From: an uncultured Aquimarina sp.
GTDB lineage: Bacteria > Bacteroidota > Bacteroidia > Flavobacteriales > Flavobacteriaceae
DNA: 41,977 nt
Reading direction: 5' to 3'
Assembly (NCBI GenBank): GCA_937929895.1
Contig: CALFUO010000099.1
Location: 1 to 41,977 of the forward strand
Shown here: positions 1 through 1,529 of the stretch, piece after piece
Numbering within the stretch: the first letter of the stretch is position 1
Layout: the number at the start of each line of letters is the position of its first letter
Notes under the pieces: generated by a model
Told to the model about the DNA's origin: nothing
What the model saw: the letters and a program-made list of their open reading frames with translations, nothing else
Database searches by the model: none
Position numbers and translations under genes: made by a program

Positions 1-103
1 ATCATAATTTGTCATATGTCGGCGAAATTTAAGAGTATTTTTGATAATTTCAGTAGACAGTAACACAAAAAAAGATAATTTTAAGAATCTCTTTTTAGTT
101 GAG

Positions 104-525
104 AGTTGTGAGTTGTCAGTTGTGAGTATTTCTTTATTTTCTCCCATCAATATTTTGTTTATAGTAATTGATGAATCCATTTAACAATTTTCTACACTGA
201 ATGATATTGTCACTTATTTTATGGAATTCTTCTCTACCTATATATTCTAGATCTAATGCTAAGTATAGTTGTGTTTCTAATTCATAAATAGATCCTCTAC
301 TTATGAATAAAAATTGTAACGTGTCTCTTGAAGTTCTTCTTCCACAGCCTTCAGCTATATTTGACGGAATAGAAATAGAACTCCGTCTAATTTGACTTAC
401 TAAGCCGTACAATTCTGATTTAGGAAAAGATTCTGTAACAACATAAATTTCTTTTACTAATTGCCTAGATTCTTTCCATACTTCTAAATCTTTATAATTC
501 ATAATGCTTCTGACAACTCACAACT
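104..525. mobile_element. Putative single-gene cassette: four-helix-bundle gene bounded by a perfect 16-bp inverted repeat (104-119 / 510-525)
   Basis: agttgtgagttgtcag at 104-119 and its exact reverse complement ctgacaactcacaact at 510-525, enclosing ORF 134-502; the right repeat ends 5 bp before the metH stop codon. Confidence 0.55.
134..502 (-). CDS. Four helix bundle protein (23S rRNA-intervening-sequence / S23-like family)
   Basis: 122 aa; MNYKDLEVWKESRQLVKEIY...FPKSELYGLVSQIRRSSISIPSNIAEGCGRR is the family signature. Confidence 0.9.
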   Translation of the reverse strand: MNYKDLEVWKESRQLVKEIYVVTESFPKSELYGLVSQIRRSSISIPSNIAEGCGRRTSRDTLQFLFISRGSIYELETQLYLALDLEYIGREEFHKISDNIIQCRKLLNGFINYYKQNIDGRK

Positions 526-530
526 GATAA

Positions 531-1529
531 CTAAATAACCTTAAAACCTCTCGGCTTGTACCCTGATGCTAAATCAGCAATTGCCGTAATATGTGCAGGC
601 GTTGTTCCACAACATCCACCAATAATATTGATTAAGTCTTTATCTAAAAACTCTTTTATCTGAGCAGCCATCTGTTCTGGAGTCTCATCGTACTCTCCAA
701 AAGCATTTGGTAAACCTGCATTGGGGTGTGCAGAAACATTAAACTCTGCCTTATTTGCTAATACTTCTAAATGTGGGGTTAACTGATTTGCTCCTAGAGC
801 ACAATTAAAACCAACACTTAACATTGGAATATGTGATACCGAAACTAAAAAAGCTTCTGCTGTTTGACCCGAAAGAGTTCTACCACTTGCATCTGTAATT
901 GTACCACTTACCATAATAGGAACATCAACACCACGCTGGTCTTTAACTTCTTCTATTGCAAACAATGCTGCTTTAGCATTTAAAGTATCGAAAATTGTCT
1001 CTACTAACAAAAGATCAGATCCACCATCTAATAAAGCTTCTACCTGCTGTTTATAAGCAATTCGTAGATCGTCGAATGTCACTGCTCGATACCCAGGGTC
1101 ATTAACATCTGGAGACATACTAGCAGTACGGTTTGTAGGCCCTATAGAACCTGCGACAAATCTAGGTTTTTCTGGATTTTTAGCTGTAAATTCGTCAGCT
1201 ACTTCTCTGGCAATTTTAGCTGATTCGTAATTTAACTCGTATACTAAATCTTGCATTCCGTAATCTTCCATAGCAATGGTAGTACCCGAAAACGTATTGG
1301 TCTCTGCGATATCTGCTCCGGCCTCGAAATATTTGGCATGAATTTCTTTTATTGCTTTGGGTTGTGTCAGACTTAATAAGTCATTATTTCCTTGTAAAGG
1401 TTGCCCCCAATCCTTAAAACGCTCACCACGATAATCTTCTTCTGTAAATTTATATTGCTGAATCATCGTACCCATTGCACCATCAAGCACAAGGATGCGT
1501 TCTTTTAATATGTCTTGAATCTTTTGCAT
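531..1529 (-). CDS. metH: Homocysteine S-methyltransferase family protein (N-terminal module of split cobalamin-dependent methionine synthase)
   Basis: 332 aa; [42 protein letters not shown] (zinc-binding Cys motif). Confidence 0.9.

Follow-up and report, generated by a model that had tools for sequence, protein, structure and literature searches.

S23 genes between inverted 7-nt repeat arrays at operon junctions: the metH locus of an uncultured Aquimarina and its relatives

Genes of the PF05635 (S23) family are very common in Bacteroidota, and we know of no function for them. One such gene lies between the two halves of metH in an uncultured Aquimarina sp., in the 41,977-nucleotide stretch analysed here (contig CALFUO010000099.1; the window), where it is enclosed by a perfect inverted repeat. 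What kind of unit do gene and repeat form, and how did it come to stand in a methionine operon? A first-pass annotation proposed a minimal mobile unit, mobilised in trans or carried as a hairpin, that had inserted between the halves of a split metH. The reading favoured here, with moderate confidence, is a widespread element composed of an S23 gene and two cognate inverted arrays of ~7-nt units, which resides at operon junctions in the direction of transcription and relies on the host operon for its expression.

Anatomy of the element between metH1 and metH2

The sequence AGTTGTGAGTTGTCAG at 104-119 recurs as its exact reverse complement at 510-525, and the only gene between the two copies is an S23 gene of 122 aa (134-502, minus strand); both the lone IVP-like ORF and the lack of a transposase inside the unit had been correctly described. 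The chance of a perfect 16-bp inverted pair in 1.5 kb of such composition is roughly estimated at ~1e-3. The arms are longer than 16 bp, extending to 26 nt (88%; 94-119/510-535). They are tandem ~7-nt arrays, one reaching the metH1 stop codon and the other the metH2 N-terminus, so that the sense order is metH1, left arm, S23 gene, right arm, metH2.

The upstream (left) arm (510-535, minus strand) is an imperfect 26-nt array of AGTTATCAGTTGTGAGTTGTCAG-type units around a perfect core (510-525). The metH1 stop codon (531-533) lies 5 bp off this core, as annotated earlier, but within the extended arm. The downstream (right) arm (94-127, minus strand) is the reverse-complementary 7-nt array, ACTCACAACTGACAACTCACAACTCTCAACT in sense, and contains ~4-5 AGTTGTN units in a row; the repeat had been described as built from AGTTGTG/AGTTGTC heptamers. 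In the RNA fold predicted for 80-560 (z = -5.8), which takes in coding sequence, the two arms pair with each other.

The operon's upstream gene, metH1 (531-1529, minus strand), encodes the homocysteine S-methyltransferase half (PF02574, 8e-101) and matches the N-terminal 319-336 positions of metH models. The cobalamin-binding half, metH2, had been suggested to lie just left of position 1, and its start is found inside the window: within an ORF at 1-180, the stretch 147-73 (minus strand) is a recognisable metH2 N-terminus when compared with those of relatives, and its start codon (147-145) overlaps the final codons of the S23 gene. The right arm is thus also coding, being translated as MGENKEILTTDNSQLSTKKRFLKLS, an N-terminal extension similar to the metH2 N-termini of relatives. 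Below ~73, at the contig end, the sequence ceases to match metH2; positions 1-72 may be a contig-end artefact or belong to a disrupted metH2.

The encoded protein belongs to the S23 (23S_rRNA_IVP) four-helix-bundle family, matching PF05635 over residues 4-109 (4.3e-40; 136.6 bits, cut-off 33.8) and TIGR02436 (1.8e-38). In profile searches its similarity to Avd, the accessory protein of diversity-generating retroelements, was below threshold (bAvd, 8e-5; DivGenRetAVD, 2e-4), and the curated Avd cut-offs were missed (21.9 bits vs 80; bAvd, 23.5 vs 40). The family assignment made earlier therefore holds, with Avd as a sub-threshold relative. Solved relatives are 2gsc (XCC0516) and 2rld, with five chains each; the S23p protein of Xanthomonas forms a homopentameric ring (PMC4990558). 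S23 proteins are no more than mildly basic (median net charge +2), a point against the reading favoured here.

Occupied and empty junctions

Among ~30 genomes of the same genus, the metH1/metH2 junction is occupied by S23 with arms in 11 (one of them decayed) and empty in ~20, which bears out the expectation that both kinds of locus would be found. In the empty junctions metH2 follows metH1 directly after a gap of a few bases, with neither heptamers nor arms. The split of metH is the normal state in most relatives and was not caused by the insertion. On the metH1 tree eight changes of state are required, and the occupied G001 lies inside a supported clade of empties. Comparison of occupied with empty metH loci shows that the junction is replaced, and no target-site duplication was recognised.

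Other arrangements of this junction were also seen. In G019 (L049) it holds a different insert, with CCCCTAACCCCCAAAGGGG/TTCTCCCTTTGGAGG sequences entering both reading frames. Aequorivita has a threonine-dehydratase-like gene between metH1 and metH2, and in G037 and G050 the two are set apart by ~1.15 kb of other sequence (loci L161, L240 and L242).

The same S23 subfamily is found beyond the genus. Proteins of close similarity occupy two junctions, metH1/metH2 (in Kordia, Poritiphilus, Seonamhaeicola, a Flavobacterium and others) and metH2/metF (in Flagellimonas, Pedobacter, Mucilaginibacter and others). In the S23 clade to which the window's gene belongs, 31 of 43 members are found in the methionine operon; further relatives stand at trpD/trpC, fadJ/fadA and other junctions. 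Conservation at the same metH site across distant genera with no empty sites had been named as an observation that would speak against a mobile unit: the first half of it is seen, in several genera, and empties exist. A contig labelled as a Klebsiella pneumoniae MAG (L175) carries a Flavobacterium-like metH/metF operon with S23 and is probably mislabelled or contaminated.

The sdhA/sdhB junction occurs in three states. Either the two genes lie a few bases apart, or they are separated by a gene-less hairpin of 70-87 nt that bears the metH-type heptamer (in the window's own genome, L023/L253, and in others, L255, L258, L260, L261 and L265) or by an S23 gene with other arm types (G003 and G039). 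Gene-less hairpins with the cognate heptamer are present here in eight genomes, seven of which have the metH S23 gene.

The nearest relative of an S23 gene nearly always occupies the same junction in another species. Recent transposition is rejected on this ground; movement must be rare, and none was observed directly. Most sites are monophyletic within the genus, while metH2/metF and sdhA/sdhB are not across wide taxa, although these trees of 110 residues are weak. The dN/dS of S23 is mostly 0.03-0.2, and 0.09-0.15 at metH, indicating purifying selection. Low dN/dS and nearest relatives at the same junction together identify these genes as long-lived residents with a functional protein, and the window copy, too, is a long resident of the metH junction in its lineage. 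The proposal of a minimal mobile unit is thus upheld in that gene and repeats form one unit. The unit is not, however, a recent minimal cassette bounded by perfect 16-bp repeats; it is a long resident under purifying selection, and its arms are ~7-nt arrays that enter both neighbouring reading frames.

Mobilisation in trans fared less well. No reverse transcriptase (RVT_1) was found in G001, G004 or G006 (8-11 S23 copies) or in G015 (20 copies), and G004 also lacks a Y1 transposase; neither enzyme is therefore needed for high copy number, and both were rejected as required partners for the current copy number. The window's own genome has a single RVT_1 match, on contig C163 (the window is C99), and at the window locus itself no reverse transcriptase, template or variable repeat was found.

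S23 genes and their arms at 176 loci

The S23 gene with its arms at metH is one case of a general element at operon gene junctions across many bacteria. A survey covered 176 S23 genes, mostly from Bacteroidota (97 from the genus and order, 79 from named genomes); names of operon genes were mostly read from neighbouring protein sequences rather than from database matches. The inverted heptamer repeats anticipated around other family members were found. The flank pairing score was 12.8 in the 97 loci and 14.9 in the 79, compared with 8.4 for control genes (P = 3e-22 and 7e-20). Inverted comparison of the flanks scored 13.7 and direct comparison 9.1, and inverted was also above reversed. The flanks have a period of 7 nt (z = 16), sometimes 8, with other periods near control. 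In ~40% of S23 genes the arms were no different from control. The strongest arms mostly have four or five units (14 and 20 of 61 arms), a range that starts at the detection threshold of ~4 and so speaks neither for nor against exactly five units per arm, one for each subunit of a pentamer. Contigs labelled Syntrophobacterales, Methanophagales, Gastranaerophilales, Parcubacteria and Planctomycetota also carry S23 with inverted ~7-8-nt arms (L206, L209, L212, L216 and L226).

It might be argued that such arrays arise by chance or slippage in these AT-rich genomes, where 7-nt arrays are common, and that S23 is an ordinary small operon gene beside them. Many bacteria do have an excess of heptameric simple repeats (PMC4679880, PMC4692102), and the genomes with S23 also contain arrays that enclose no gene. 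However, neither the 7-nt period nor the pairing appears in control genes or in control stretches taken from these loci. The arms, moreover, are inverted and polar; left matches right, and both match the subfamily of the protein. Contradicted by the controls, this explanation is very improbable.

The element is strongly oriented. Both neighbours are co-directional with S23 in 166 of the 176 loci, and S23 is reversed against its neighbours in five. The G-rich arm is the upstream one in 99 of 106. Upstream arms contain more stop triplets than shuffled sequence (345 vs 252 +/- 10), and the stop codon of the upstream gene lies within the left arm or at most 10 nt from it in 80 of 102. The idea that the right arm is kept free of stops was rejected, as its stop count is not below that of shuffles.

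This orientation bears on whether the element is a transposon-like cassette, with arms as terminal repeats and S23 as passenger or Avd-like accessory, mobilised at the DNA level by an enzyme from another locus (Y1/RAYT, a reverse transcriptase or another). Such a cassette would explain why the same gene with the same arms occurs in different operons, why sites are patchy and why there are gene-less hairpins resembling non-autonomous copies. A near-absolute orientation bias would nevertheless be unusual for a DNA transposon, neither target-site duplications nor fixed ends were seen, the arrays vary in length, and the genomes described above reach 8-20 copies with no reverse transcriptase, one of them with no Y1 transposase either. 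We regard this alternative as improbable.

Repeat type follows S23 subfamily. When arms at one site are swapped across species, they pair less well than the native combinations do (10.3 vs 13.4, P = 8e-8); such co-evolution was absent at two sites, S4 (sufC/sufD) and S7. At unrelated sites in different genomes, repeat words are common to 40-55% of pairs with 60-80% protein identity, and to ~1% of pairs below 50% identity (Mantel r = 0.18; permutation maximum 0.07). Different S23 subfamilies share no repeats, whether in one genome or at one site. Repeat words thus track S23 relatedness and not genome or site, which means that the gene and its arms act together as a unit. The trpD/trpC copy of G004 and the metH copies of G001 and G017, for example, have S23 proteins 79% identical and the same heptamer, which points indirectly to movement from operon to operon in the past.

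The window's own genome has five PF05635 genes, two of which lie in the thi operon (thiE/thiG and thiG/thiH) and one at hisA/hisF; their arms are inverted and of other sequence (GGTATCA, AGTATTA and others). Pattern searches, by which alone genome-wide hairpins were counted, gave 44 occurrences of the metH heptamer pattern in the assembly and none of the reversed-pattern control, and several of the 44 are gene-less inverted pairs. In G005 (L109; G005:C17:49212-56356), one thiamine operon holds three S23 genes at different junctions.

Because repeat type goes with protein type, the S23 protein, as a ring, probably recognises its own repeats. The protein could then be a host operon regulator rather than part of a selfish element, binding mRNA repeats and controlling translation of its own operon and of operons with gene-less hairpins, in the manner of TRAP (trp RNA-binding attenuation protein). 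Faithfulness to site combined with purifying selection would fit, as would the concentration of the window's clade in the methionine operon, at two or three junctions across Bacteroidota, and the overlap of the metH2 start codon with the end of S23. The sdhA/sdhB hairpins, seven of eight in genomes with the metH S23 gene, and the pentameric relatives 2gsc and 2rld are further points in its favour. Genomes with a cognate S23 also have more arrays of the corresponding heptamer (median 34 vs 2, P = 4e-6); the total number of S23 genes correlates as well, however, and the phylogeny-corrected test has too few independent pairs to have power. Patchy presence, such as the occupied G001 in its clade of empties, and the many functionally unrelated operons would be odd for a regulator. 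Overall, we consider a host regulator unlikely.

Proposed mechanism and comparison with known systems

The element may best be read, by analogy, as the counterpart in mRNA operons of the 23S rRNA intervening sequences. In the latter, complementary ends form a stem that is cut by RNase III with no subsequent ligation (PMC4990558). Intervening sequences with an S23p ORF, as in Coxiella, Leptospira and Brucella, likewise encode a PF05635 protein between complementary stem-forming ends, are transcribed in sense inside a host transcript whose continuity is not needed, and are patchily present (PMC4990558). The ORF at metH similarly lies within ends capable of forming a stem. In contrast to them, the element described here is located between protein-coding genes of an operon and not in rRNA, its arms are tandem 7-nt arrays that follow the S23 subfamily, it has many sites per genome, and its S23 is under purifying selection, whereas S23p of Coxiella is decaying.

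The element would be expressed from the host operon promoter. Its upstream arm is a stop-rich stretch in which the preceding reading frame ends, and in some copies its downstream arm extends the next one at the N-terminus. Pairing of the arms in the transcript would place the S23 message in a loop, as in the ORF-bearing rRNA intervening sequences, and processing of RNase III type could separate the flanking messages. The S23 ring may bind its own repeat type, as RNA or single-stranded DNA, and this binding could serve maintenance of the element, rare movement or autoregulation. G.U-wobble asymmetry did not favour sense-RNA pairing as the selected level (15 vs 42 and 37 vs 29), which leaves the stem with a possible role as DNA, or with none.

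An extension of this proposal, put forward tentatively, is that S23 subfamilies are sequence-specific rings binding one 7-nt unit per subunit, and that gene and cognate arrays sustain themselves in protein-coding operons. Free-standing and rRNA S23 would then be two habitats of one type of element, and gene-less hairpins might be kept or moved in trans by the cognate protein. TRAP offers an analogy only: it too is a ring homo-oligomer that acts on tandem repeats in leader or intergenic RNA, but its fold is unrelated to S23 and TRAP-like binding by S23 is putative.

Other known systems share parts of this anatomy. Avd has a related fold and sequence profile, below the cut-off; in contrast to a diversity-generating retroelement, the locus yielded neither a reverse transcriptase nor a template or variable repeat, and several genomes rich in S23 lack reverse transcriptases altogether. 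Simple repeats with a heptameric unit (GGGAATC in Xanthomonas and Nostoc; TAACTGA in Beggiatoaceae and some Bacteroidetes) are also 7-nt tandem arrays, mostly intergenic and sometimes between operon genes. They are described as direct repeats that seldom form inverted pairs and are not linked to a protein gene (PMC4692102, PMC4679880), whereas the arms described here are both inverted and polar and go with an S23 gene. MITE and REP-type palindromes resemble the element as dispersed short intergenic inverted repeats, including the gene-less hairpins of the same genomes. Heptamer arrays and such hairpins are numerous there, but the arrays vary in length and fixed ends were not seen. The element differs in encoding S23 in its loop, in its strong orientation with the operon and in showing no transposase-type ends or target duplications.

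Published work covers rRNA intervening sequences, Avd and direct heptamer repeats (PMC4990558, PMC10053308, PMC4679880, PMC4692102); in the literature searched, whose coverage is incomplete, no description was found of S23 genes in cognate inverted heptamer arms at operon junctions. From the survey, the orphan family PF05635 gains a defined anatomy and a testable rule, that of a subfamily-specific 7-nt repeat forming inverted arms at operon junctions. If the protein does recognise the repeat, a large orphan family would be explained, rRNA intervening sequences would be linked to elements of mRNA, Avd would be given a context and the dispersed heptamer arrays a possible reason. Very long uniform arrays (~15-25 copies of GGTTGAT or GGTTGTT) were seen in G007 and G060, away from the listed S23 positions.
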